NCBI GenBank assembly: GCA_020161775.1
Contig: JAIUOW010000011.1
Location: 62,001 to 126,000, forward strand
DNA: 64,000 bases
Reading direction: 5' to 3'
Source: Pseudomonadota bacterium
GTDB taxonomy: Bacteria > Pseudomonadota > Gammaproteobacteria > Burkholderiales > Burkholderiaceae_C
Below the pieces are notes generated by a model. The model did not search any database and was not told where the DNA came from. It saw only the letters and a list, made by a program, of their open reading frames with translations. The translations under genes were made by a program, and so were the position numbers. Shown one piece after another: positions 9,088-57,008 of this stretch (its first letter is position 1; each line of letters opens with the position of its first letter).

Positions 9088-10797
9088 ATGGCTTCGCCGT
9101 CGCCGCGCTGGTCCACCGGGCCGGGCACGGCTGACAGTGCGGCGGCCGCCATTGCGCGGGCGTTGCGCGTCCATGGGGTGGCCGCAACGCAGGCCTACAT
9201 CACGCAGGCGGTGCATGAATACCCCGGCCAGGCCACCCCTGCGGCTATGGTGGAACTGCTGCAGCTGTGGGGCGTGGACACCGTGCCCATGGCGGGCAGC
9301 GTGGATGAATTGCCCGCCGATGCCGCGGGCAGCCTGGTGCCGCTGGCGGGCGGGCGCTATGGCGTGGTACTGCGAACCGGCGAGGCCGGCATCACCCTCG
9401 CGGTGGACGGCGCCACACGCCGCCTGACGCACGCAGAATTCAACGCCCTGTGGAATGGCATGCTGCTGGTGCTGAAACCGCGCGCGGACGCGGGCGAGCC
9501 CTTTGCCGCTGAACAGGTGGCGGCCCAGCGCTGGCGCCGTGCGCGCGGTGCGGCACTGGCCCTGGCGGTGCCTGCCTTGCTGGTGGTGGCCGCGCTGGCG
9601 TGGCCACCGTGCGCGGGCGGGTGGGCGCTGGCCGCACTGGCGCTGATCAAGTTCATGGGCCTGGCGGCAACCGTGGTGTTGAGTTTTGAGCAGGCCGGCA
9701 TTGGCCGGCCATTGCAGCGCCTGTGTGCCGCCGGTCCGGTGGCCAATTGCGCCCGGGTGCTGCGTTCACCTGCCAGCCGCCTGGGCCCGGTGCCGTTGGC
9801 GGACCTGGGGCTGGTCTACTTCGCCAGCGGCCTGCTGGCGCTGGTGCTGGCGGCATTCACGGGGGAGGCGGCGCCCGCGCTGGCCATGCTCGGTCTGCTG
9901 TCCTTGGCCCTGCTGCCATTCACCGCGCTGTCGGTTTACTACCAGGCGGTGAAGCTGCGCTCCTACTGCTGGCTGTGCCTTCTGGTGGCGGCGCTGCTGT
10001 GGCTGGAGGCCGGCTTGTCTGTGGCCGCTGGCGTTTCACTGGGCGGCTGGCCCTGGGGCGCCCAGGCGTGGCTGCTGATGGTGATGGCCTGGGGTGGGAC
10101 CACGCTGGCCTGGCTGGGGCTGCGGCCCCTGCTGGCGCAGGCGTGGCAGGGCAGGGCGGTGGCGCGGGATTTTGCGCGGGTGCGCGCCCAGCCGCCGGTG
10201 GTGCAGGCGCTGTGGGACGCGGGCGAGCAGCCCTTGCCACCTGTGCCCGGTGAGGTGTGCCTTGGCGATGCCGGTGCGCCTGTGCAGGCCGTGCTGGCGG
10301 TGCTGCCCGCGTGCCCGGCCTGCGGGCGCCAGGTTCGTGCGGCCTGGGCGCTGCAGGCCGTGCTGGGCGAGCGCATGGCGATCCGGCTGCGGTTTTTGCG
10401 TGGTGGTGATCCTTCAAGCGCCCCCACGCCCGCCCTGCGCGACCAGTACCGGGTGGCCGACGGTGTCGCGGCGTTGCTGGTTCACCTGGCCGCCCAGGGC
10501 GATACGGCCTTGCTGCGCCGCGCTTGTGCCGGATGGTTCTTTGAGGCCAAGGAACATGTTGCCAGCCCGGCGGCCTTTGGCCGCTGGCAGGCGGGCGTGC
10601 TGGCGGGTCTGCCTGCCCCGGACGTGCGGGTGATGCTGCCGGCGCTGATGCGGCAACACCAGTCCCTGCAGTCGCTGGGCATCGACGCCGCGCCGGTGGT
10701 CTTCGTGAATGGCCGGCGGCTTCCCCCCGAATGGGACTGCATGGACCTGCGCTATTTCCTGTTACGGGAACTTCGCCGCTCGCCAAATCAGCTTTGA
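9088..10797 (+). CDS. C39-like / vitamin K epoxide reductase / thioredoxin-fold membrane protein
   Basis: A 569-residue three-part protein. Residues ~15-135 resemble the C39 peptidase-like domain found ahead of some bacterial VKOR proteins, but contain no cysteine, so no cysteine peptidase activity is expected. Residues ~150-375 form a membrane VKOR domain with the loop pair C213/C221 followed by VLRSPASRLGPVPLADLG, and the active-site CxxC C294-W-L-C297. Residues ~395-565 are thioredoxin-like with C409-P-A-C412. VKOR-Trx fusions form disulfides in exported proteins using quinone. It follows alaS by 6 bp and precedes a regulator and a Cys-containing double-glycine-leader peptide. A role in maturing those peptides is inference. 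Confidence 0.75.
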   Translation: MASPSPRWSTGPGTADSAAAAIARALRVHGVAATQAYITQAVHEYPGQATPAAMVELLQLWGVDTVPMAGSVDELPADAAGSLVPLAGGRYGVVLRTGEAGITLAVDGATRRLTHAEFNALWNGMLLVLKPRADAGEPFAAEQVAAQRWRRARGAALALAVPALLVVAALAWPPCAGGWALAALALIKFMGLAATVVLSFEQAGIGRPLQRLCAAGPVANCARVLRSPASRLGPVPLADLGLVYFASGLLALVLAAFTGEAAPALAMLGLLSLALLPFTALSVYYQAVKLRSYCWLCLLVAALLWLEAGLSVAAGVSLGGWPWGAQAWLLMVMAWGGTTLAWLGLRPLLAQAWQGRAVARDFARVRAQPPVVQALWDAGEQPLPPVPGEVCLGDAGAPVQAVLAVLPACPACGRQVRAAWALQAVLGERMAIRLRFLRGGDPSSAPTPALRDQYRVADGVAALLVHLAAQGDTALLRRACAGWFFEAKEHVASPAAFGRWQAGVLAGLPAPDVRVMLPALMRQHQSLQSLGIDAAPVVFVNGRRLPPEWDCMDLRYFLLRELRRSPNQL

Positions 10798-10853: not shown

Positions 10854-11693
10854 ATGAAATTCTCCGTGCCACCGCCGGGCTCCCGGCTTGAGATCCTGGA
10901 TTTCGCCGGCAGCGCCGTGGCGCCCCTGGCCCGCTGGATGGTTCGCTCGGGCATTGGCTACCGCGATTTCTGCCTGCGGCTCAAGCGGGTGTACCTGCGG
11001 GCAGCGGTGGCCGAGCTGGAACGCCAGGGCGCCAAGCAGACCGAGACCGCGCTGTGCGCCTTGTCGGGGCTGCACCGCAAGGACGTGCATGCGTTGATGC
11101 AGGGCATGGCGTTCGTCCCCAGCCAGGAGGGCGGTGCCGACGACCGCGTACGGCGCATGGTCAGCACCTGGATGACGGAATGGAAAAGCGCGCCCTTGCC
11201 CTTTGCCGGCGGCGCGCCTTCCTTTGAGGCGCTGGCGGAACTGGCGGGTGAGGGCGGTGCCCTGGCCGCGCTGTCGGAGCTGTCCCGCCGCGCCATCGTG
11301 GAATGCCGCGGCGACCATGTGTACCTCGTCAAGCCCGATGACGCCACGGTGTCCCTGCATGACGCGGGCCAGAGCCTGGCCGACCATGTGGACGCCGTGG
11401 TGGACCAACTGTCGGGCAACGCCAGCCCGCTGGCCTACAGCCTGCTGCTGGAGAACCTCAGCCCCGAATCGCTGCGGCGTGTGGAAGAACTGGCGCGTCA
11501 GGCCTGGTCGCAGGTGGCGGGTGAGGTGGCGCGCGAAGCCCGCGCCCTGAGCAAAGCGGATGCCGGGCACAGGTGGCAAGGGCGCTACCGGTTCGGCATG
11601 TTCGGACGCGCGGCGACGGAGCAATGGGCTGAGAATCAGGGTAAATACTTGGTGAAAGACACTGCCCGGCCGGAATTAAGTCTCGAAAAGTGA
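10854..11693 (+). CDS. DUF6502-type putative DNA-binding regulator
   Basis: A 279-residue soluble protein that I match to the DUF6502 family by LARWMVRSGIGYRDFCLRLKRVYL, the segment KQTETALCALSGLHRKDVHAL (helix-turn-helix-like, ~residues 60-85), RRMVSTWM and the SFEALAEL block. The N-terminal region looks like a DNA-binding winged-helix domain; the C-terminal half is helical. No characterised function is known to me. It lies between the VKOR fusion and the first GG-leader peptide on the same strand, so control of that peptide is a reasonable but untested inference. Confidence 0.6.
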   Translation: MKFSVPPPGSRLEILDFAGSAVAPLARWMVRSGIGYRDFCLRLKRVYLRAAVAELERQGAKQTETALCALSGLHRKDVHALMQGMAFVPSQEGGADDRVRRMVSTWMTEWKSAPLPFAGGAPSFEALAELAGEGGALAALSELSRRAIVECRGDHVYLVKPDDATVSLHDAGQSLADHVDAVVDQLSGNASPLAYSLLLENLSPESLRRVEELARQAWSQVAGEVAREARALSKADAGHRWQGRYRFGMFGRAATEQWAENQGKYLVKDTARPELSLEK

Positions 11694-11714: not shown

Positions 11715-11742
11715 TTGGCATTCTGTTTCGTCTGATTACAAT
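11715..11742 (+). promoter_or_regulatory. Promoter of the first GG-leader peptide
   Basis: -35 TTGGCA (11715-11720) and -10 TACAAT (11737-11742), spacer 16 bp, each 5 of 6 to the sigma70 consensus. It sits in the 130-bp gap before the peptide gene, so the peptide can be transcribed separately from the upstream regulator. An imperfect hairpin, ATCGA-N6-TCGAT at 11749-11764, lies in the leader. Confidence 0.55.
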
Positions 11743-11822
11743 TCGTGTATCGAGATGTTTCGATCGGAGCTGGAAGTTCAGCGCCGCGAGGACAGTGATG
11801 TTTCAACGACTGGAGAAACAAG

Positions 11823-12077
11823 ATGCGAGTTCTGACGTTTGAAGAGATGGACTTGGTGTCCGGCGGGACGAAAGACGGTTGCAAGCGCAACAACGGCTGG
11901 GGTAACGGCGATGACGACGCGCCCGGCAACTCCCTGAACAACAACAAGGCCGAAAACGACGTGCGCCCCGGCGCAGCCCACAAGACCTGGGGCACGGCCG
12001 CCAACCCCGAGGCCAATGGCGATTGCTGCAGCTGCGGCACGCCCCCGCCCCCGCCGCCCCCGCCGCAAGATTTTTGA
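11823..12077 (+). CDS. Double-glycine-leader peptide with polyproline-QDF tail, copy 1
   Basis: An 84-residue peptide. Residues 1-15 form a Gram-negative double-glycine leader: MRVLTFEEMDLVSGG. The predicted core is hydrophilic, Asn/Gly/Asp-rich, with C20 and a CCSC-type cluster (C68, C69, C71). It ends in Thr, eight prolines, then QDF. GGAG lies 8 bp before ATG 11823, a good promoter precedes it and an intrinsic terminator follows, so it is a real monocistronic gene. The leader and tail are shared with the peptide at 14622-14870, but the cores are unrelated. Leaders of this kind are normally cut after GG by C39-peptidase ABC exporters; none is in the window. Bacteriocin, signal or surface peptide are all possible. 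Confidence 0.8.
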   Translation: MRVLTFEEMDLVSGGTKDGCKRNNGWGNGDDDAPGNSLNNNKAENDVRPGAAHKTWGTAANPEANGDCCSCGTPPPPPPPPQDF

Positions 12078-12108
12078 GGCGGCCAGCGCAATATAAAAGC
12101 CACCCTCT

Positions 12109-12132
12109 AAAAGCCACCCTCGGGTGGCTTTT
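12109..12132 (+). terminator. Rho-independent terminator after peptide copy 1
   Basis: Stem AAAAGCCACC / GGTGGCTTTT with loop CTCG, followed by T residues. The A-run on the 5' side makes it usable for the convergent ABC substrate-binding gene as well. The 13-bp 5' part (AAAAGCCACCCTC) is tandemly duplicated at 12096-12108. Confidence 0.85.
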
Positions 12133-12150
12133 TGCTGGGCGGCGAAGGGT

Positions 12151-13296
12151 CTAGCGGATGATCTTGCCGTCCGGCGTGATCGTGACCAGGTCAATGGCAC
12201 GCACCGAGTCGCGCATGCCCGCGCGCAGGTTGATGCGAAAGCCGCCGACGTCATAGTCGGTCATGGTGGCCATGCTGGCCTGCAGCCTGGCTTTGTCAAA
12301 ACCCTTGCCCGCGCGGCGCACGGCTTCGGCCAGGGCTTTTGCGGCGATAAAACCTTCCAGGCTTTCGTAGGACGGGGACTGGTCCGAGTTGTCGATGGCG
12401 GCCAGGTATTCCTTGACGATGGGTGTGGCCGAGCTGCGCGGCGAGGGCACCACCTGCGACACCACGACGCCGCCGATTTCCTTGCCCAGGGCCGTGAACA
12501 GCGGGTCGATGCCCACCACCGAGAAATTCATGAACGCACCGGCATAGCCTGCCTTGCGCATCTTGCGGATGAATGCCGCCGTGGAGTTGAACAGCGAGAC
12601 CTGGATGATGGCCTGGGGCTGCGCCTTGAAAAGGCTGGCCACCGCCGCATCGACCTTGTCGCTGTTGACAGGCACGAAGGCCGAGGCCACCAGCGGCGGC
12701 AGCTTGAGCTCGCTCATGGCCTGGTTGACGGCTGCCAGGCCCGCGCGGCCCATGGTGTCGTCTTCGGCCAGCACGGCGATGCGCGTCTGGCCCAGGGTGG
12801 CGCAGTGGCGGACCATCTTGAAGGCCTCGTCGGCCATGCTGGGCCGCACATGAAACACGTTGGTGTGCGAAGCATCACGCAATGCGTCTGACGCGGCGAA
12901 CGGGCCGAAGAAAATGGCACTCTCGGACTTGGCGACCGCGGCGCCCGCATCTGAACTGGCGGTGCCGACAAAGCCGAACAGCACGTCGGCCCCGTCTTCC
13001 AGCAACTTCTTGGCATTGGCTGTGGCCTTGGCGGGTTCGTAGCCGTCATCGAGCTGGCGCAGCTCGAAATTCCAGCCGGGGTTGCTCTTGCGGGCGTTGA
13101 AGGCGTCTACATACAGCTTGGCGCCCGCGGCGAATGCCAGGCCGATTTCGCTGGCCGCCCCGGTCAGCGGCACGGATTGGCCGAGCACCACCTTGCGGCC
13201 CGCCGCCGGTTTTGCCTGGGCATGAACCAGTCCCGTCCCACACAGCCCCAGCCCCGCCAGGCCCATTCCCAATACCGTCCGTCGCTTGGTGTTCAT
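12151..13296 (-). CDS. ABC transporter substrate-binding protein, branched-chain amino acid type
   Basis: A 381-residue exported protein of the Peripla_BP_6 (LivJ-like) family. The N terminus MNTKRRTVLGMG...AQA is a Tat-like signal, then VVLGQSVPLTGAASEIG, the usual ligand-pocket start, and two lobes to the C terminus. These proteins bind amino acids, amides or aromatic acids for an ABC importer; no permease or ATPase genes are adjacent, so it is an orphan receptor. ATG 13296 has AAGGAG 8 bp upstream; the frame extends to 13314 but lacks that site. It lies between the two GG-peptide genes on the opposite strand and is probably unrelated to them. Confidence 0.85.
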   Translation of the reverse strand: MNTKRRTVLGMGLAGLGLCGTGLVHAQAKPAAGRKVVLGQSVPLTGAASEIGLAFAAGAKLYVDAFNARKSNPGWNFELRQLDDGYEPAKATANAKKLLEDGADVLFGFVGTASSDAGAAVAKSESAIFFGPFAASDALRDASHTNVFHVRPSMADEAFKMVRHCATLGQTRIAVLAEDDTMGRAGLAAVNQAMSELKLPPLVASAFVPVNSDKVDAAVASLFKAQPQAIIQVSLFNSTAAFIRKMRKAGYAGAFMNFSVVGIDPLFTALGKEIGGVVVSQVVPSPRSSATPIVKEYLAAIDNSDQSPSYESLEGFIAAKALAEAVRRAGKGFDKARLQASMATMTDYDVGGFRINLRAGMRDSVRAIDLVTITPDGKIIR

Positions 13297-13462
13297 GGCT
13301 GAACTCCTTGTCATGTTGTGAGCCTGCCCGCAAAGTTGATGCCAGCTTTCAGGCCGTCAAAAGGTAACCCATCCCACTGCCGCTGGCAATACGGGTTTGG
13401 TGCCGATTGCGAATGCAGTCATGTGCGCAGGTCATGACGGGCTGCTCCCTACAATGCGGCCC

Positions 13463-14410
13463 ATGATGCCCAACCCCCCCTTGCCCGCAGCGCCGCGGCC
13501 GGTCCCCGCGACGGACCAGGAACTGTGCCTGATGGGCGTCACCCGCATGGCGGACTTCATTGACTTCGTGCGCGAACGCGCCATTGGAGGCCGCGAGATG
13601 GACCGCGGCGACCTGGCCGACATGTGGCGTGAGGCTTCAGTGGTGTTCCAGGAACTGCAGACGGCCGAGGCGGGCGCCGCCGACAAGCCGCAGATCCTGC
13701 CCCTGTCCGCGCCTTTGCAGGCCCATGTCAACAAGCTGGTCCAGCTTGACAGTTTCCGGCAGACATTTTCGTCGGTGCCGGTGGCCTTTGGCATGGTCGA
13801 GCTGGACAAGCTGGTGGTCTGCCAGCAGCACATCGGGCGCGCCAGCGTGGACCGCATGGTCAACGGCCTGCCCAGGCCGCTGGCCGATGCCGACCTGGCG
13901 GCGGTATGCCTGCCGCTGACAGCGGGGGACGCCAGTTTCAAGGTGGCCCACCAGGGCGGCGAGCGGTTCGTGTTTGTGTCGGACACGCATGACACCCGGT
14001 TCCTGGGCGCCCAGCTGGTCAACCCGGCGGACATCAAGGGCCTGCAGGTCCATGGCCATGCCCAGGCCGTGCTGGCCCTGAGCGTGGGCTTCACGACCAA
14101 TGTGCTGAATGTGGTGCGCTATGGCCCGCGTGTGGTGCTGAACAACGGCTACCACCGGGCCCTGGCCTTGCGTGAGCTGGGTGTGACCCATGCGCCGTGC
14201 CTGATCCAGGTGTGCGCCCATTGGGAAGACGTGGGCCTGGCCGGCTCCAGCGAGATGTACGACAACGGGCCGGTCTATTTCAGCGCGGCCCGCCCGCCCT
14301 TGCTGCGCGACTTTGCCAACCCGCAGCTGACGCGCTCATTCGCGGCGCGGCGCCTCACGCGGGAAATCCGCCTGACCTATGAAGTGGATTCGCTCCAACT
14401 CGATTTGTAA
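13463..14410 (+). CDS. Unrecognised protein, possible ParB/sulfiredoxin-like fold
   Basis: About 315 residues from ATG 13463 (the frame is open from 13397). I do not recognise a named family. Two separated segments resemble halves of the ParB/Srx fold: FGMVELDKLVVCQQHIGRAS (~residues 110-130), and VVLNNGYHRALALRELGV (~220-240), like the ParB 'dGhhR..A..elG' motif. Between them is a ~90-residue insertion. No signal peptide or membrane segment. A TACAAT lies just before the start. It ends 211 bp before the second GG-leader peptide on the same strand, so a link to that peptide is possible but unproven. Confidence 0.45.
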   Translation: MMPNPPLPAAPRPVPATDQELCLMGVTRMADFIDFVRERAIGGREMDRGDLADMWREASVVFQELQTAEAGAADKPQILPLSAPLQAHVNKLVQLDSFRQTFSSVPVAFGMVELDKLVVCQQHIGRASVDRMVNGLPRPLADADLAAVCLPLTAGDASFKVAHQGGERFVFVSDTHDTRFLGAQLVNPADIKGLQVHGHAQAVLALSVGFTTNVLNVVRYGPRVVLNNGYHRALALRELGVTHAPCLIQVCAHWEDVGLAGSSEMYDNGPVYFSAARPPLLRDFANPQLTRSFAARRLTREIRLTYEVDSLQLDL

Positions 14411-14461
14411 CTAGACTGTTGCAAATTCGCTGTTGTGCGAGAAATTTCACGAAAATTTTCC

Positions 14462-14499
14462 GTAACACGCTTGTTACAGTAGATGTAACTGACTACACT
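14462..14499 (+). promoter_or_regulatory. Promoter with GTAAC repeats before the second GG-leader peptide
   Basis: -35 TTGTTA (14471-14476) and -10 TACACT (14494-14499), spacer 17 bp. Three half-sites overlap it: GTAAC 14462-14466, GTTAC 14473-14477 and GTAAC 14485-14489, so GTAAC-N6-GTTAC-N7-GTAAC. This looks like a regulator binding site around the -35. The leader to ATG 14622 would be about 115 nt. Confidence 0.5.
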
Positions 14500-14621
14500 C
14501 GCCGCATTGATAACAGGATGCAAGGGTGCAGGGGCCTTGCACGCAATAAGACGTACCGGGTTTTGGGCTTCACACAGGGGCCTGAAGGCCGGCCACAGTT
14601 TTTGACAACCAGGAGTTCAGC

Positions 14622-14870
14622 ATGCGTGTTTTGACTCTCGAAGAAATGGAACAGGTCGCCGGTGGGCGAGGTTGTTCCAGCAAGAGCAGCAAGAAGAAAT
14701 CCAGCAAGAAGAGCAGCGGCAAGGGCAGCAGCAGTGGCCGTGGCGGCCGCTGCGGTGGTGGCTCCAGCAGCGGTGGCTCCAGCAGCAGCGGCCGTGGCTG
14801 TGGCGGCAGCACCCCGCCGCCGCCGCCTCCCCCGCCGCCGCCTCCTCCGCCCCCCCCGCAGGATTTCTGA
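14622..14870 (+). CDS. Double-glycine-leader peptide with polyproline-QDF tail, copy 2
   Basis: An 82-residue peptide. Leader MRVLTLEEMEQVAGG differs from copy 1 only at residues 6, 10, 11 and 13. The core is made almost wholly of Ser, Gly, Lys and Arg with three cysteines (C18, C44, C60), strongly basic. It ends in Thr, fifteen prolines and QDF. AGGAG lies 7 bp before the ATG, a promoter precedes it and a strong terminator follows. The core shares nothing with copy 1 except Cys content, while leader and tail are kept: this is how substrates of one export/processing machine look. Polyproline of this length should need EF-P for translation. Function unknown. Confidence 0.8.
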   Translation: MRVLTLEEMEQVAGGRGCSSKSSKKKSSKKSSGKGSSSGRGGRCGGGSSSGGSSSSGRGCGGSTPPPPPPPPPPPPPPPQDF

Positions 14871-14893: not shown

Positions 14894-14923
14894 AAAAATG
14901 CCCCGCTCGCGCGGGGCATTTTT
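14894..14923 (+). terminator. Rho-independent terminator after peptide copy 2
   Basis: A perfect 13-bp stem (AAAAATGCCCCGC / GCGGGGCATTTTT) with loop TCGC. The A- and T-rich ends make it bidirectional, serving the convergent ilvD gene too. Confidence 0.9.
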
Positions 14924-51478: not shown

Positions 51479-52072
51479 TTACGCCGCGCGCTCGCCGAGC
51501 CCGCGCATGCGCGACAGCCATTTGCCGCTGTCCTGCGCGCGCAGGCCTGCCGCGCTGCCCACCAGTGTTTCGCTCACCGGTGCAATGCCCACAAAGCCCA
51601 GCACGTTGCGCTCCAGCGCGCGCACGCTGTGGGCGCGGAAGTACCAGCGGTACACCAGGGCCGGCATGCCCATGGTGACCACCACCCGGGCCGAGCGCCC
51701 CGTGAGGCCTTTTTCGGTGAACACGGCGCTGCCTTGCTTGCGCACGAAGGCAAAGCCGGGGCGCAGCACCTGTTCCAGAAAGCCTTTCAGCAGGGCCGGC
51801 ATGTCGCCCAGCCACAGGGGGAAGAACAGCACGATGTGGCTGGCCCAGCGGATGTCGTCCTGCGCGGGCTGCAGCGCGGGCGGCAGCTCGCCGTTTTCCC
51901 AGTCGGCCTGGCTGGCCAGCAACGGGAACTGGAGGTTGGCCACCGTCAGCCGGCGCACCGTGTGGCCGGCGCCGGTGGCGCCTTGGGCGTAGGCGTCGGC
52001 CAGCGCGTGGCACAGGTGGGGGGCGCCAGCATCCGGGTGACCCTGGATGAGCAGGATGTTTCTGGGCTGCAT
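51479..52072 (-). CDS. NAD(P)H dehydrogenase (quinone), flavodoxin-like fold
   Basis: 197 residues of the NQO1/KefF-type family: ILLIQGHPDAGAPHLCHALADA (FMN phosphate region), HIVLFFPLWLGDMPALLKGF, and GKGLTGRSARVVVTMG-like strands. Such enzymes carry out two-electron reduction of quinones. It lies 33 bp downstream of the DksA/TraR-like gene on the same strand and so may share its FNR-type promoter. Confidence 0.85.
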   Translation of the reverse strand: MQPRNILLIQGHPDAGAPHLCHALADAYAQGATGAGHTVRRLTVANLQFPLLASQADWENGELPPALQPAQDDIRWASHIVLFFPLWLGDMPALLKGFLEQVLRPGFAFVRKQGSAVFTEKGLTGRSARVVVTMGMPALVYRWYFRAHSVRALERNVLGFVGIAPVSETLVGSAAGLRAQDSGKWLSRMRGLGERAA

Positions 52073-52105
52073 GGGCGCAGGCCGGCGGGCAGGTCGGGGG
52101 GGGCT

Positions 52106-52492
52106 TCAGCGGCGCGTGGCCTGCGGGCGTTCGTGCTCGTGCACGGCCTGGCACGACGTGCAGTACGGCGTGGCGGGCAGCGCCTCCAGGCGGCGCAGGT
52201 CAATGGCGTCACCACAGTCCAGGCACAGGCCGTAGCTGTGGTCGTCCAGCCGGCGGCGCGCGGCGGCCAGCTGGTCCAGCTCGTGTACGGCGTGGTTGGT
52301 CTTGGCGTCGTCCACGGTGGCCTGGGTCTGCTCGGTGGCCAGCTCCTTGAAGTCGACCACGTCGCGCGGCGCGGTGTCGGGTGCTTCACTGCCCAGGTCG
52401 CCGCTGTTGCGCAGCAGCAGCCTCAGCTCGGCTTCGCGCCGGGCCAGTTGTTGGTGGAAGTGCTGGCGCATGCTGGCATCGAGGGTGTTCAT
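52106..52492 (-). CDS. DksA/TraR-type zinc-finger protein
   Basis: 128 residues: a helical coiled-coil region (~residues 8-85) and a C-terminal C4 zinc finger (CLDCGDAI ... YCTSC). DksA homologues bind the RNA polymerase secondary channel; this short form is a paralogue rather than housekeeping DksA (~150 residues). An FNR-like box with a fitting -10 lies upstream, so low-oxygen expression is probable. Confidence 0.85.
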   Translation of the reverse strand: MNTLDASMRQHFHQQLARREAELRLLLRNSGDLGSEAPDTAPRDVVDFKELATEQTQATVDDAKTNHAVHELDQLAAARRRLDDHSYGLCLDCGDAIDLRRLEALPATPYCTSCQAVHEHERPQATRR

Positions 52493-52552
52493 GGTGACTC
52501 GCGTGCGGAGTTGGACTTGGGTCCATTCTGGGCATGCCGGGCGCGCGCGGAC

Positions 52553-52566
52553 TTGATCTGCCGCAA
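52553..52566 (-). promoter_or_regulatory. FNR-like box before the DksA/TraR-like gene
   Basis: TTGAT-CTGC-CGCAA, 8 of 10 to consensus. On the minus strand CAGAAT (52530-52525) lies 36 bp from the box start, exactly as for ccoN and hemN. The implied leader is about 26 nt. Confidence 0.55.
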
Positions 52567-52588
52567 CAACCTGGCGTGCGCGGGACGC

Positions 52589-53380
52589 TTATTGCGCGCA
52601 GGGCGGCGGCGTCACCAGCGTGTGCAGCGCCTGTGCGTCCAGGATGCGCAGGTGGCGGCTGCGCACCTCGATCACGCCGTCCTCGGCCAGCTTGCTGAAG
52701 GTGCGGCTGACCGTCTCCAGCTTCAGGCCCAGGTAGCTGCCGATCTCCTCGCGCGTCATGCGCAGCACCAGCTCGCTGCGCGAAAAGCCGCGCGCGTGCA
52801 GGCGCTGCACCAGGTTCAGCAGGAAGGCGGCCACGCGTTCCTCGGCCCGCATGCCGCCCAGCAGCAGCATCACGCCGTGCTCGCGCACGATTTCGCGGCT
52901 CATGATGCGGTGCACGTGGTGCTGCAGCGCGCCGATCTCGCGCGACAGCTCGCCCACGCGGTCAAACGGCATGACGCAGACCTCGGCGTCTTCCAGGGCC
53001 ACGGCATCGCAGGTGTGGTGGTCGTTGACGATACCGTCCAGCCCGATGATCTCACCGGCCATCTGGAAGCCCGTGACCTGGTCGCGCCCGTCCTCCGACG
53101 TGACGCAGGTCTTGAAAAAGCCGGTGCGGATGGCAAACAGCGAATGAAAGGCCTCGCCATGGCGAAACAGCGCGCCGCCGCGCTTGACCTTGCGCCGCGT
53201 GGCCACCACCTCGTCCAGGCGCGCCAGTTCGTCCGGGCTCAGGCCCATCGGCATGCACAGCTCGCGCAGGTTGCAGCTGGAGCAGGCCACCTTGATGGTG
53301 TGCAGGTCCGCAGGCCCGGCAGCGGGGGAGGGTACCAGCTTCAATGGGGCACGTGGCACAGTCAATGGGGCATTCGACAC
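52589..53380 (-). CDS. fnr: FNR-type oxygen-sensing regulator, paralogue 2
   Basis: 263 residues with cluster ligands C33, C36, C42 (CSSCNLRELC) and a further Cys in EDAEVCVMPF, the beta-roll, and HTH TREEIGSYLGLKLETVSRTF with E--SR specificity residues. Compared with paralogue 1 the recognition helix is identical, so both should read the same boxes. GTG 53380 has AGGA upstream. Divergent from hemN, with two FNR-like boxes between. Confidence 0.92.
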   Translation of the reverse strand: MSNAPLTVPRAPLKLVPSPAAGPADLHTIKVACSSCNLRELCMPMGLSPDELARLDEVVATRRKVKRGGALFRHGEAFHSLFAIRTGFFKTCVTSEDGRDQVTGFQMAGEIIGLDGIVNDHHTCDAVALEDAEVCVMPFDRVGELSREIGALQHHVHRIMSREIVREHGVMLLLGGMRAEERVAAFLLNLVQRLHARGFSRSELVLRMTREEIGSYLGLKLETVSRTFSKLAEDGVIEVRSRHLRILDAQALHTLVTPPPCAQ

Positions 53381-53408
53381 AGGGTTTTCCTAAGGGCGCA
53401 CGGCGCCT

Positions 53409-53422
53409 CTGATCTGCATCAA
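53409..53422. promoter_or_regulatory. FNR-like box, distal site between fnr and hemN
   Basis: CTGAT-CTGC-ATCAA, 9 of 10 to consensus, exactly 41 bp upstream of the hemN-proximal box. No matching -10 at class II distance on either strand, so it may be an upstream tandem site for hemN or an autorepression site for fnr. Confidence 0.6.
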
Positions 53423-53449
53423 ATTGTCCCGCCCCCCTGTCTGGCGGAT

Positions 53450-53463
53450 TTGATCCACGTCAA
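53450..53463 (+). promoter_or_regulatory. FNR box of hemN
   Basis: TTGAT-CCAC-GTCAA, 9 of 10 to consensus. Class II geometry puts transcription at about 53498 with CACAGT (53486-53491) as -10, one base before ATG 53499. Confidence 0.75.
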
Positions 53464-53498
53464 AGGTGCCGGTCATCGCGCGCGGCACAGTCAGGGCC

Positions 53499-54881
53499 AT
53501 GGAAACTGTCTCGCCCGAACTGCTGCGCCGTTTTGATGTGTCCGGCCCCAGGTACACGTCATACCCCACCGCCGACCGGTTTGTGGAAGCGTTTGGCGCG
53601 TCCGACTACGCCCAGGCGCTGGCGCAGCGGCGTGCCGGCCCGGCCGCGCTGGCGTTGCCGCTGTCGCTGTACGTGCACATCCCGTTCTGCGAATCGCTGT
53701 GCTATTACTGCGCCTGCAACAAGATCATCACCAAGCACAAAAGCAAATCATCCGGCTACCTGCGGTACCTCAGCCGCGAGATTGACCTGCACGTGGCCGA
53801 GCTGGGGCTGGGCCAGCCTGTCACGCAGCTGCACCTGGGTGGGGGCACGCCCACCTTCCTGTCCGATGACGAACTGCGTGAACTGATGGCCATGCTGCGG
53901 CGCAGCTTTGCGATGGCGCCGGGCGGCGAATATTCCATCGAGGTGGACCCGCGCACCGTCAATGCCCAGCGGCTGGCGCTGCTGGCCGAGCTGGGTTTCA
54001 ACCGCCTGAGCTTTGGCGTGCAGGACTTCGACCCCGACGTGCAAAAGGCGGTGCACCGCATCCAGCCCGCCAGCCAGGTGTTCAGCCTGGTCGAGGAAGC
54101 GCGCGCGATTGGCTTTGATTCCATCAACGTGGACCTGATCTACGGCCTGCCGCGCCAGACGCCGGAATCCTTCGCGCGCACGCTGGCCCAGGTGCAGCAG
54201 CTGCGGCCCGACCGCATTGCGCTGTATGCCTATGCCCACCTGCCCGAACGCTTCAAGCCGCAGCGGCGCATCGTGCCGGCGGAACTGCCCGGCGGCGCGG
54301 CCAAGGTGGCCATGCTGTCGCAGTCGCTGGCGGCCTTCCTGGCCGCGGGCTATGTGTACGTGGGCATGGACCACTTTGCACTGCCCACCGACGCGCTGGC
54401 CGTGGCCAAGCGCCAGGGCCGGCTGCACCGCAACTTCCAGGGGTACAGCACGCAGCCGGACTGCGACCTGATCGGCCTGGGCGTGTCGGCCATTGGCCGC
54501 ATCGGCGCCACCTACAGCCAGAACGCCAAGACCATGGAAGAGTATTGCGACCACCTGGACCAGGGGCGCCTGCCCGTGGTGCGCGGCCTGGCGCTCAGCC
54601 GCGACGACCTGGCGCGCCGCGCCGTGATCATGGCGCTGATGTGCCAGGGCCAGGTGCTGTTCGAGCCCATCGAGCTGGCCTGGCTGATCGACTTCAAGAC
54701 CTACTTTGCCGCCGAGCTGGAACAACTGCAGACCCTGGCCGAGCAGGGCCTGGTGACGCTGGACGACACCGGCGTGCAGGTCACGGCCCAGGGCTGGTTC
54801 TTCGTGCGGGCGGTGGCCATGGTGTTTGACCGCTACCTGCAGGCCGACCGCAACCGCGCGAAGTTCTCGCGCATCATCTGA
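53499..54881 (+). CDS. hemN: Oxygen-independent coproporphyrinogen III oxidase
   Basis: 460 residues of the radical-SAM HemN type: PRYTSYPTADRF N terminus, cluster motif FCESLCYYCACN (CxxxCxxC), GGGTPTFL and GGEYSIEVDPR SAM-binding blocks, and the C-terminal HemN domain. It makes protoporphyrinogen for heme without oxygen, matching FNR control and the cbb3 genes. ATG 53499 matches the family start and lies directly at the predicted transcription start, so the mRNA may be leaderless. Confidence 0.95.
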   Translation: METVSPELLRRFDVSGPRYTSYPTADRFVEAFGASDYAQALAQRRAGPAALALPLSLYVHIPFCESLCYYCACNKIITKHKSKSSGYLRYLSREIDLHVAELGLGQPVTQLHLGGGTPTFLSDDELRELMAMLRRSFAMAPGGEYSIEVDPRTVNAQRLALLAELGFNRLSFGVQDFDPDVQKAVHRIQPASQVFSLVEEARAIGFDSINVDLIYGLPRQTPESFARTLAQVQQLRPDRIALYAYAHLPERFKPQRRIVPAELPGGAAKVAMLSQSLAAFLAAGYVYVGMDHFALPTDALAVAKRQGRLHRNFQGYSTQPDCDLIGLGVSAIGRIGATYSQNAKTMEEYCDHLDQGRLPVVRGLALSRDDLARRAVIMALMCQGQVLFEPIELAWLIDFKTYFAAELEQLQTLAEQGLVTLDDTGVQVTAQGWFFVRAVAMVFDRYLQADRNRAKFSRII

Positions 54882-54891
54882 ACGACGCGCC

Positions 54892-55620
54892 GTGTCCGCC
54901 ACGCTTGCACTCACCGGGCTGGTCATGGGGCTGGCCGGTGGCGTGCACTGCGCGGCCATGTGCGGCGCGGCCTGCGCGGGCGTGGTGCGGCTGTCCTCGG
55001 GGCCCGCGGTGCTGCAGCCCGTGGGGTCGGTTGCCGGGCGGGCCGTGGCGGCGCGTTCAGCCGCCAGCGCCACCCTGTCGCTGCAGGCCGGGCGCTTGCT
55101 GGGCTACAGCGCCGCCGGCGCACTGGCAGCTACCGCCATGCAGAGCCTGGCCTGGATGACCACCCAGGCCGTCGCGCTGCGTCCGGTGTGGACGATGCTT
55201 CATGCGGGCCTGCTGGCCTGGGGCCTGATGCTGCTGGTGCTGGCGCGCCAGCCCGTCTGGGTGGACAACGCGGGCCGCGCGCTGTGGGCGCGGGTGCAGC
55301 CGCTGGCACACGCACCCGGCGGCCTGCTGGCCACCGGCGCGCTGTGGGCGCTGATGCCCTGTGGCCTGCTGTATTCGGCGCTGCTGGTGGCCGCCCTGAG
55401 CGGCGGTGCGGCGCAGGGCGCGCTGACCATGGCGCTCTTCGCCGCGGGCAGCGCCATCTCCATCGTGGCCGCGCCCTGGCTGCTGCTCAAGGTGCACGCA
55501 CGCGCCAACCACTGGCGCCAGGACTGGGGCACGCGCCTGGCCGGGCTGGTGCTGGCCGGTGCGGCGGGCTGGGCGCTGTGGATGGACCTGATGGGGCGGG
55601 TGGGAGAGATCTGCCGGTAG
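54892..55620 (+). CDS. Sulfite exporter TauE/SafE-family (DsbD-like) membrane protein
   Basis: 242 residues with about six TM helices. The first helix carries GLAGGVHCAAMCGAACAG, the HCxxMCG motif typical of the branch found near cbb3 and copper genes. The end of the third helix has ALMPCGLLYSALLVAALSGG, a second conserved Cys. These features suggest copper or thiol transport rather than sulfite export. GTG 54892 is 10 bp after hemN, so it is co-transcribed. Confidence 0.8.
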   Translation: MSATLALTGLVMGLAGGVHCAAMCGAACAGVVRLSSGPAVLQPVGSVAGRAVAARSAASATLSLQAGRLLGYSAAGALAATAMQSLAWMTTQAVALRPVWTMLHAGLLAWGLMLLVLARQPVWVDNAGRALWARVQPLAHAPGGLLATGALWALMPCGLLYSALLVAALSGGAAQGALTMALFAAGSAISIVAAPWLLLKVHARANHWRQDWGTRLAGLVLAGAAGWALWMDLMGRVGEICR

Positions 55621-55649
55621 CGGCCATTCCTGCCGCCGCAGCCCTGCTG

Positions 55650-57008
55650 CTACTTCAACGTGACCCGCTCCAGATAAAACGGCATGTGACAGGCCCAGCC
55701 CAGTTCGCGGCCAATGCGCTGGCGCAGGGCGTCGGCGGCGGCGGGCTCACCATGGGTGATGAAGGTGGTGCGCGGCGCGGCCGTGAAGCCGCGCAGCCAC
55801 TGCATGATTTCGCCTGCGTCGGCGTGGGCTGACAGGCTGTCCAGGCGCGCCACCTCGGCGCGGATGGGCACCTCCTGGCCATGGATGCGCACGCTGTGCG
55901 CGCCGCCGGTGATGCTGGCGCCGCGCGTGCCGCCGGCCTGGTAGCCGGCAAACAGCAGGGTGTTGCGCTTGTGTGGCGCAAAGGCCTTGATGTGGTGCAC
56001 CACGCGCCCGCCAGTGGCCATGCCGCTGGCCGCGATGATGACCATGGGCCCGCGCCGCGCGCTCAGCGCCTGTGAAGCCTGCGGCGTGTCCACGATCTGG
56101 GCGGCACTGGCCATGGCCGCGCATTCGGCGGGGCTCAGGCGCAGCTCGTCCGGGTGCTTTTCATACACATGCAGGGCCGACGCGGCCATGGGGCTGTCCA
56201 GGTACACCGGCAGGTGGTGGATGGCGCCGCTGGCCTTGAGCTGGCTGATGGCGTGCAAAAGGCTCTGGGCGCGCCCCACCGCGAAGGCCGGTATCACCAC
56301 CGCGCCGCCGCGCGCGGCCGTGCGGTTGATGACCGCCGCCAGCGCCTGCAGGCCCTGCTGGTCCGGGTGGTCGCGGTCGCCGTAGGTGGATTCCACGACC
56401 AGGTAATCGGCGCCGTCCATGCGCACCGGCGCCTTGAGCACCGGGTCGTTGGGCCGCCCCAGGTCGCCCGAGAACAGCAGGCTGCGCGAGCCGTCGTCCA
56501 GCCGCACGAACGAGGACCCGGCCATGTGGCCGGAGCGTGACAGCCGCGCCTGCACACCCGGCACCGGCGACCAGCCGCGGTCCAGCGCCACGGGCTTGAG
56601 CAGCTTGAGGCTGCGCAGGGCGTCTTCCTTGGTGTAGAGCGGCTGCGCCGGGGTGTGGCGGCTGAAGCTGTGGCGGTTGGCGTAGGCGGCTTCTTCTTCC
56701 TGCAGGTGGCCTGAATCGGGCAGCAGGATGCGGCACAGGTCGGCGGTGGCGGCCGTGCAGTAGATCTTGCCCCGAAAGCCCTGGCGCACCAGCAGCGGCA
56801 GATAGCCGCTGTGGTCGATGTGCGCATGGGTCAGGATCACCGCGTCAATGTCGGCCGCCCGCACGGGCGGCTTTTGCCAGTTGCGCAGGCGCAGCTGCTT
56901 GTAGCCCTGGAACAGGCCGCAGTCCACCAGCAGGTGGCGGTCGTTGACGCGCAGCAGGTAGCGCGAGCCTGTAACGGTGTCGGTGGCGCCCAGGAACTGG
57001 AGTTTCAT
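55650..57008 (-). CDS. MBL-fold nuclease (beta-CASP / RNA-specificity type)
   Basis: 452 residues: metallo-beta-lactamase motif HAHIDHSG (~residues 59-66) in MKLQFLGATDTVTGSRYLL context, SGDLGR and ESTYGDRDH, a beta-CASP domain (~200-330) with PAFAVGRAQ, and the C-terminal SLSAHADAGEIMQW and THGEPAAADAL motifs. It resembles CPSF-like ribonucleases. ATG 57008 matches the family start and fits an FNR box 34 nt plus 41.5 bp upstream; the frame is open to 57074. Confidence 0.88.
   Translation of the reverse strand: MKLQFLGATDTVTGSRYLLRVNDRHLLVDCGLFQGYKQLRLRNWQKPPVRAADIDAVILTHAHIDHSGYLPLLVRQGFRGKIYCTAATADLCRILLPDSGHLQEEEAAYANRHSFSRHTPAQPLYTKEDALRSLKLLKPVALDRGWSPVPGVQARLSRSGHMAGSSFVRLDDGSRSLLFSGDLGRPNDPVLKAPVRMDGADYLVVESTYGDRDHPDQQGLQALAAVINRTAARGGAVVIPAFAVGRAQSLLHAISQLKASGAIHHLPVYLDSPMAASALHVYEKHPDELRLSPAECAAMASAAQIVDTPQASQALSARRGPMVIIAASGMATGGRVVHHIKAFAPHKRNTLLFAGYQAGGTRGASITGGAHSVRIHGQEVPIRAEVARLDSLSAHADAGEIMQWLRGFTAAPRTTFITHGEPAAADALRQRIGRELGWACHMPFYLERVTLK

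Follow-up and report, generated by a model that had tools for sequence, protein, structure and literature searches.

A 64,000-nucleotide stretch of a Burkholderiales genome (assembly GCA_020161775.1, contig JAIUOW010000011.1, positions 62,001 to 126,000; hereafter, the window) carries two short genes whose products share a double-glycine (GG) leader and a proline-rich tail around unrelated cores and, between these genes, a third gene that encodes a conserved protein of 315 amino acids (aa), here denoted the partner. Comparison with relatives suggests that the peptides are probably secreted and that these genes form part of an export system about which little is known, with a hitherto undescribed partner of its own. 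The explanation that we favor, with a probability of about 0.6, is that they are exported hydrophilic peptides with a dedicated partner and an extracellular role. The features on which this interpretation is based are the following (positions are those of the window):

11823-12077, forward strand: peptide precursor 1, 84 aa, with a GG leader, an acidic, Asn-rich core and a T-P8-QDF end
11889-11960, forward strand: 24-residue module NNGWGNGDDDAPGNSLNNNKAEND inside peptide 1, which recurs elsewhere
13463-14410, forward strand: partner protein, 315 aa, with the motif NGYHR; ATG at 13463, in an open reading frame (ORF) that opens at TTG 13397
14622-14870, forward strand: peptide precursor 2, 82 aa, with a GG leader, a basic Ser/Gly/Lys/Arg core and a T-P15-QDF end

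Peptide 1 consists of the leader MRVLTFEEMDLVSGG (residues 1-15), a 57-residue core with four cysteines and the T-P8-QDF tail; peptide 2 combines the leader MRVLTLEEMEQVAGG with a 48-residue core that contains three cysteines and no histidine, followed by T-P15-QDF. The two leaders are identical at 11 of 15 residues, and a plausible ribosome site, read directly, precedes each start (GGAG and AGGAG, respectively). Both ORFs, with their GG leaders and T-Pn-QDF ends, had been picked out by an earlier reading of the same sequence (the original prediction) and were confirmed, as was its claim that the cores are unrelated (Smith-Waterman score of 22, against a shuffle mean of 27.6). In the complete 4.36-Mb genome, the leader pattern (up to three mismatches) and the tail pattern (up to one mismatch) each matched in two places, namely the two peptide genes, and the same patterns run backwards as a control matched nowhere; the two-gene observation is real and not a product of chance. 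Because the proline codons of the tail are mixed (CCG, CCC and CCT), a slipped DNA homopolymer is not the source of this sequence. Among 298 other genomes of the family, the tail pattern produced a single match (G207, locus L006), with no leader-bearing ORF among those listed, and the backwards control also produced one.

A codon-degenerate leader pattern run over the contigs of 84,980 species yielded 17 loci; as judged by eye from the translations, short ORFs whose leader ends in GG are present in 11 of these and absent from the other six. In four of the 11, from Ideonella alba, Ideonella aquatica, the Burkholderiales metagenome-assembled genome (MAG) UWPOB_VITRI1 and a Ramlibacter MAG, the leader MRVLTLEEME[KR]V[SA]GG is combined with a proline-rich end, which in the Ramlibacter peptide reads TPPPPPPILL. 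Together with the family genome G055, these four keep the leader MR[VI]LTLEEMExV[SA]GG. Thus, homologues with the leader-tail pairing, on whose existence the original prediction had staked itself, are found in two Ideonella species, two MAGs and G055. The other GG-leader peptides among the 11 differ in composition, several being Gly-rich or hydrophobic, so that having the leader is not enough to place a peptide in the system.

Across the 16 precursors that we collected, the proline-rich tail is present in eight, all from members of Burkholderiales, and is absent from the five alphaproteobacterial peptides. Of the constant tail originally proposed, the proline-rich end therefore recurs in relatives, whereas QDF occurs in only two of the 16 precursors, both from the window genome, and its candidacy as a functional sorting signal was dropped. 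Counterparts of peptide 2 with three cysteines and a proline-rich tail are present in G055, in two copies whose first 45 codons differ by six synonymous and no non-synonymous substitutions, which is consistent with selection on the protein. The similarity of the peptide 2 core to that of its G055 counterpart cannot be clearly separated from an effect of composition (as good a score was reached by 106 of 2000 shuffles), and its scores against the Ramlibacter, Ideonella alba and Rubrivivax cores were no better than those of shuffles; the core of Blastomonas peptide A was left out of these comparisons. The apparent kinship of peptide 2 with these peptides rests on leader, position, cysteines and tail.

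Several additional peptides with the same type of leader were observed. Those at L016 (4335 and 4608), L010, L017, L019, L020 and L021, from Acidobacteriota, Rhizobiales and Gammaproteobacteria, have Gly-rich or hydrophobic cores. In a Rubrivivax MAG (L015, 5980-6210), a MRVLTLEEMLLAAGG peptide with a Gly/Lys/His-rich core and three cysteines is encoded in a locus with HlyD and a C39-peptidase ABC exporter (PCAT).

The original prediction passed over the conserved partner encoded between the two peptide genes. Using the window proteins as tblastn queries, we detected a partner homologue in both Ideonella loci as well as those of UWPOB and Ramlibacter (36-60%). The partner is rare: it was found in four of 299 genomes of the family including the window genome, in one of 349 order-level genomes (the window genome itself) and in four of 72,556 plasmid records, the same four plasmids being retrieved by two other queries, and in none of the phages or viral contigs searched. 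Altogether, there are 11 distinct partner loci, with G258 and the Ideonella aquatica locus counted as one: the window, G055, Ramlibacter, the two Ideonella, UWPOB, G167 and the plasmids of Methylobacterium nodulans, Paracoccus liaowanqingii, Rhodobacter sp. CZR27 and Blastomonas sp. RAC04. Each of the 11 has, within about 0.25 kb of the partner gene, a short gene whose leader ends in GG, GGG or GAG; the one in Paracoccus is unannotated in the record. Four of these loci were found via the peptide leader, so that the pairing there is no independent test; six (G055, G167 and the four plasmids) were found via the partner alone. The partner, for which we found no name, serves as a marker for exporters of GG-leader peptides in beta- as well as alphaproteobacteria and provides a handle for finding further loci of a system that is testable with few genes.

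The partner has no Pfam match above the cut-off and falls into no Pfam or NCBIfam family. Ten aligned partner sequences share N-G-[YH]-H-R, followed by G and P, and the motif F...RPP.L.DF..P. The residues G229 and R232 of the GxxR signature are invariant in all ten; in the ParB-CTPase fold, GxxR constitutes the P motif (PMC12704722). When a partner profile was compared to the PDB, the best match was the free serine kinase SerK, at a weak E-value of 0.33, followed by sorting nexin-1 (E-value of 1); in addition, four of the ten partners weakly matched the NCBIfam SerK model (best E-value of 0.012). The likeness to the SerK/ParB-CTPase fold lies in the GxxR context NG[YH]HR, seen in 10 of 10 sequences; the differences are that the partner's matches stay short of significance and that it has a long unmatched N-terminal part and a setting among GG peptides and a type I secretion system (T1SS). 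In its main text, a survey of this fold (PMC12704722) uses none of the words secretion, RiPP and peptidase. We regard these similarities as a weak lead to a nucleotide-binding, ParB/SerK-like fold, not as proof, and only slightly favor the view that the partner acts on the precursor.

Genes that are possibly tailoring or regulatory parts were observed in several relatives. A FemAB-family gene follows the PCAT gene in Methylobacterium and G167, a 2-oxoglutarate (2OG)-Fe(II) oxygenase gene follows the partner gene in Blastomonas, and genes for an ATP-binding protein and a response regulator follow the PCAT gene in Paracoccus and Rhodobacter. The Rubrivivax MAG locus also contains genes for a FemAB-family protein and a PhyH-type dioxygenase. 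The positions of the extra genes (FemAB-family, 2OG-Fe(II) oxygenase, ATP-binding protein plus response regulator) are:

L042, 13784-14815
L034, 5884-6978
L045, 2590-3351
L043 and L044, after the PCAT gene

Genes for HlyD and a PCAT are located near the partner in nine of the 11 loci, and beside the peptide gene in Ideonella and UWPOB, G167, the four alphaproteobacterial plasmids and the genome G236. The genes of the G055 locus are arranged as alaS, pseudouridine synthase (PF00849, opposite strand), partner, peptide A and peptide B, followed by TolC, PCAT, HlyD and a trmB-like gene on the opposite strand. In the window genome and in Ramlibacter, a TolC/PCAT/HlyD set is likewise adjacent to a trmB-like gene (Methyltransf_4 in the window genome), on a contig separate from that of the peptides (C22, about 51641-56490, and C390, respectively). 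By Pfam, the window genome's set comprises OEP, a protein with C39, ABC membrane and ABC ATPase domains, and HlyD; the Ramlibacter set is 65-73% identical to it. The window genome's PCAT shares 73.7% identity with the G055 protein, 73% with its Ramlibacter counterpart and 51-54% with the PCATs of Ideonella, UWPOB and G167, retains the C39 Cys, His and Asp, and is the sole C39 match above the cut-off in the genome, the second, below the cut-off, being a C39-like/VKOR gene of the window that is described below. The original claim that the two peptides are substrates of one processing and export machine gains support from this linkage, that is, the HlyD and C39 exporter genes of the relatives and the single C39 exporter of the window genome; judging from gene content and order, both peptides are very likely exported by the PCAT system.

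The core of peptide 1 is not unique; it carries a recurrent module that is found in other proteins as well. Blastomonas peptide B contains the module in part: its segment KGNNGFGNGGDDPAPGNS matches KRNNGWGNGDDDAPGNS of peptide 1 with a score of 67 compared to 31 +/- 5.8 for shuffles, none of 2000 shuffles being as good. Among 337 genomes of the family, NNG[FWLC]GNG produced five matches including the window gene, and the backwards control matched in three genomes. Two of the five, L060 and L061, do not continue into the module; in G236, the module occurs in a GG-leader peptide with Pro/Ala-rich stretches that is encoded directly upstream of HlyD and PCAT genes. One further protein (L063/L066, G1021:C2) has a twin-arginine-like start, identified by eye, a single NNGxGNGD module and several cysteines, and is 56% identical to peptide 1 over 36 aa (E-value of 5e-7).

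In viral contigs, NNG[FWLC]GNGD yielded 97 matches in 78 contigs, with 62 distinct 27-residue contexts, 50 of which continue with both PG and AEN although the pattern sets the first eight residues only. At least one full module is present in 63 of the 78 contigs, and 12 have two or more. Of the 14 invariant positions in these 50 modules, seven are set by the search pattern and five by the filter (PG and AEN), so that the free ones are S15 and N19; beyond pattern and filter, A11 and N20 are shared by 45 of the 50. Peptide 1 has S15, N19 and A11, and a lysine at position 20. The module thus links peptide 1 to viral-contig proteins, and we found no name for it; a limited literature search returned no paper containing its sequence.

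With respect to the viral proteins themselves (L067-L144), the NNG[FW]GNGDQDAPGNS..NNAEN module is found partly in proteins with Pro/Asp/Glu repeats: of ten host ORFs inspected by eye, some have signal-peptide-like starts and others have long repeats of this kind. Five of the host proteins have no Pfam or PHROGs family above the cut-off, two of them also lacking an NCBIfam match. In searches with the peptide cores, the only phage match was orf42 of Roseovarius Plymouth podovirus 1 (Roseovarius phage 1; L145, 2081-2647), a hypothetical protein that is 77% identical to the module over 26 residues (E-value of 0.004), and plasmids gave chance matches at E-values of 3 and 9, nothing, or the query itself.

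Both the window and Blastomonas combine an NNGxGNG peptide with a basic Ser/Lys/Gly peptide around the partner gene. The net charges after the leader are -3 and +10 in the window and +2 and +16 in Blastomonas, so that the Blastomonas NNGxGNG peptide is less basic than its companion, not acidic. In G055, the basic type is instead present twice, and a single peptide was seen in each of the other eight loci; hence, the pair is recurrent but not universal.

Taken together, these observations fit the following mechanism. The products of the two genes would be the precursors of peptides that are small, hydrophilic and probably disordered. The C39 domain of the PCAT would recognize and cleave their 15-residue GG leader, and the mature peptide would leave the cell in one step through the PCAT, the HlyD adaptor and a TolC-type channel. 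In the window genome, the exporter in use would be the set on contig C22. The partner appears to be dedicated to the system; its most likely action is to bind the precursor, or to modify it, in the cytoplasm prior to export. The mature pair would comprise an acidic NNGxGNGD peptide and a basic Ser/Gly/Lys peptide, both with cysteines and a proline tail, and these peptides most likely act outside the cell, in surface, matrix or ion-binding functions, rather than as pore-forming toxins. Hydrophilic, often proline-tailed peptides of this kind would be overlooked by searches based on hydrophobic cores or immunity genes.

Several observations weigh against this interpretation. The exporter and the peptides are unlinked in the window genome. 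The biochemical role of the partner leans on the weak SerK matches (E-values of 0.33 and 0.012), and the structure predicted for it with AlphaFold has a confidence score (pLDDT) of 35. Moreover, G236 has a peptide, HlyD and PCAT with no partner at 1e-10, and the Rubrivivax MAG has the same three with no partner match in the MAG, so that the partner appears dispensable for some such peptides. Finally, the non-toxin extracellular role, to which we give a slight preference, is argued mainly from composition, and peptides that are cationic and rich in Lys/Arg may have antibacterial activity even if they lack a hydrophobic core.

The last point bears on the alternative under which the products are antibacterial peptides akin to class II microcins, exported by a microcin-type T1SS. 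Such microcins have a GG leader of 15-18 aa and employ a PCAT with the C39 triad, a membrane fusion protein and TolC (PMC10233263). The likeness to these systems (CvaC/CvaAB-TolC) is substantial: the window peptides and their relatives are small and have a leader of this type ending in GG or GA (15 residues in the window), cationic cores occur among them, and the PCAT with C39 Cys, His and Asp, the fusion protein and TolC are all present, although the window genome's own set is non-adjacent, on another contig. Some sub-threshold matches of leaders to class IIb bacteriocin and lantibiotic models point the same way, namely those of the Ideonella aquatica peptide to TIGR03949 (E-value of 0.007) and of the Ramlibacter peptide to TIGR03893 (E-value of 0.025) and Mersacidin (E-value of 0.045), and the peptides of L016, L017, L020 and L021 share the leader type while having Gly-rich or hydrophobic, bacteriocin-like cores. 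However, known microcins average 61% hydrophobic residues (PMC10233263), whereas the fraction of AVILMFWY, a residue set that may differ from the one used there, is 0.01-0.25 in the 16 mature regions; these cores are hydrophilic and of low complexity, with a proline tail, and are accompanied by the conserved 315-aa partner. Nor is there an apparent membrane immunity gene: a search within 700 bp of the peptide genes for free ORFs of 45-230 aa whose Kyte-Doolittle mean over 19 residues reaches at least 1.6 found none in 10 of 11 loci, the exception being an ORF on the opposite strand in L042. These 11 loci include G236 but not Ideonella alba, and the contig of the Ramlibacter locus stops shortly past the peptide gene. 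In place of the Gly/Ser-rich siderophore-attachment C-terminus of class IIb microcins, the window peptides end in T-Pn-QDF. By sequence criteria, then, membership in class II microcins fails on the immunity neighbor and the hydrophobic core, while the export route is alike. Given the hydrophilic nature of the cores and the lack of an apparent membrane-type immunity gene, we favor extracellular peptides over microcins, which are no longer the default interpretation and which we consider unlikely.

Under other alternatives, the peptides would be secreted for different purposes. If the cores bound divalent cations or metals outside the cell, the His/Cys-rich cores of Ideonella and UWPOB, the Asp/Asn-rich module of peptide 1 and the presence of dmeF, a gene for Co/Ni efflux, close to the Paracoccus operon would all make sense; yet peptide 2 has three cysteines and no histidine, and no metal genes were seen beside the window peptides, which makes this function distinctly unlikely. 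Even less probable is signalling by exported GG-leader pheromones sensed by a two-component system: the gene order in Paracoccus and Rhodobacter, with an ATP-binding protein and a response regulator annotated after the PCAT, resembles Gram-positive GG-leader pheromone systems, but this gene pair is present in only two of the 11 partner loci (several of which end soon after the exporter) and is not seen beside the window peptides, and low-complexity cores and the presence of two very different peptides would both be unusual in a specific signal. GC-rich DNA commonly contains ORFs of low complexity that are rich in proline, so that the two genes might conceivably be unrelated ORFs of this kind. 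This explanation, which we regard as having next to no chance of being correct, is refuted by the existence of relatives in other genera with conserved neighbors, along with the restriction of the leader and tail patterns to these two places in the genome and the synonymous-only divergence over 45 codons in G055.

The exported hydrophilic peptides that we favor also share features with peptides of the ribosomally synthesized and post-translationally modified (RiPP) type that have GG leaders (lanthipeptides, graspetides and others), namely the leader type, a partner gene beside the precursor gene and, in several of the relatives, the proximity of the exporter to a gene of the FemAB family or for a 2OG-Fe(II) oxygenase. 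The difference is that no known RiPP enzyme was recognized beside the window genes, and for 11 of the 16 precursors (both from the window and nine of the 14 from relatives), searches of Pfam and/or NCBIfam yielded no match above the cut-off to any family, RiPP precursor models included. A limited literature search found no paper that combines three of the terms polyproline, double-glycine, microcin and Burkholderiales. The Ser-/Lys-rich cores can be likened to silaffins, and a speculative extension, which we consider rather doubtful, is that the system represents a new class in which a nucleotide-dependent partner of the ParB/SerK fold phosphorylates or otherwise modifies Ser-/Lys-rich cores before C39 export, after which the acidic and basic peptides would form a charged, disulfide-linked matrix or a mineral- or ion-binding material.

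The order of genes in this part of the window is alaS (identified by its tRNA-synt_2c domain), the C39-like/VKOR/thioredoxin-like gene, a DUF6502 gene, peptide 1, a binding protein gene, the partner, peptide 2 and, on the opposite strand, ilvD. The DUF6502 gene has no counterpart in the loci of relatives that were examined. The additional features are:

9088-10797, forward strand: membrane protein with C39-like (below the cut-off), VKOR and thioredoxin-like (CPAC) parts
10854-11693: protein of the DUF6502 family, encoded after the VKOR gene and before peptide 1
11736-11749: inverted repeat TTACA-N5-TGTA, upstream of peptide 1
12109-12132, forward strand: terminator-like hairpin followed by a T run, after peptide 1 (z of -5.1)
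12151-13314, opposite strand: amino-acid-type periplasmic binding protein, between peptide 1 and the partner
14474-14487: inverted repeat TTACA-N5-TGTA, upstream of peptide 2
14894-14923, forward strand: terminator-like hairpin followed by a T run, after peptide 2 (z of -2.1)

The original prediction assigned each peptide gene its own promoter and terminator. A hairpin with a T run indeed follows both genes, although a simple terminator scan reported neither, but the same scan detected a promoter-like site (11715-11742) 5' of peptide 1 only and none upstream of peptide 2, so that the promoter claim is borne out for one of the two genes. The TTACA-N5-TGTA pattern, which was picked post hoc when its sites had already been seen, is confined to two places in the 64-kb window (three listed matches, 0.01 expected) and was not seen within 200 bp upstream of 14 other peptide genes; it is a possible shared operator and a lead for co-regulation in the window genome, no more.

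The product of the gene at 9088-10797 matches VKOR in Pfam at 9e-16 (58.7 bits against a cut-off of 27.5), with CWLC at residues 294-297. It resembles VKOR-type disulfide oxidases in having the VKOR CxxC and a thioredoxin-like CPAC, and differs from them in being fused to a C39-like domain without the catalytic Cys and His, which in an alignment with eight exporters are replaced by Ser and Arg, respectively. The structure predicted from the single sequence has a pLDDT of 46. No homologue was detected by tblastn in the other partner loci, in 298 other genomes of the family (1e-10) or in 397 other genomes of the phylum (1e-5), with the top first-screen candidates scored; a scan of a genome-contig collection matched 132 stretches, none of which was confirmed. 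In view of this distribution, its candidacy as an essential part of the system was lowered. A limited literature search produced no paper joining VKOR and C39 with double-glycine or bacteriocin. The nearest homologue found is a Spirosoma plasmid gene, about 23-25% identical and degenerate at the same places, that lies upstream of genes for two glycosyltransferases, a PCAT and HlyD. Because it was found in no other partner locus, we retain this protein as a putative accessory component, for which leader-guided disulfide formation in the cysteine-containing peptides would be a plausible role.

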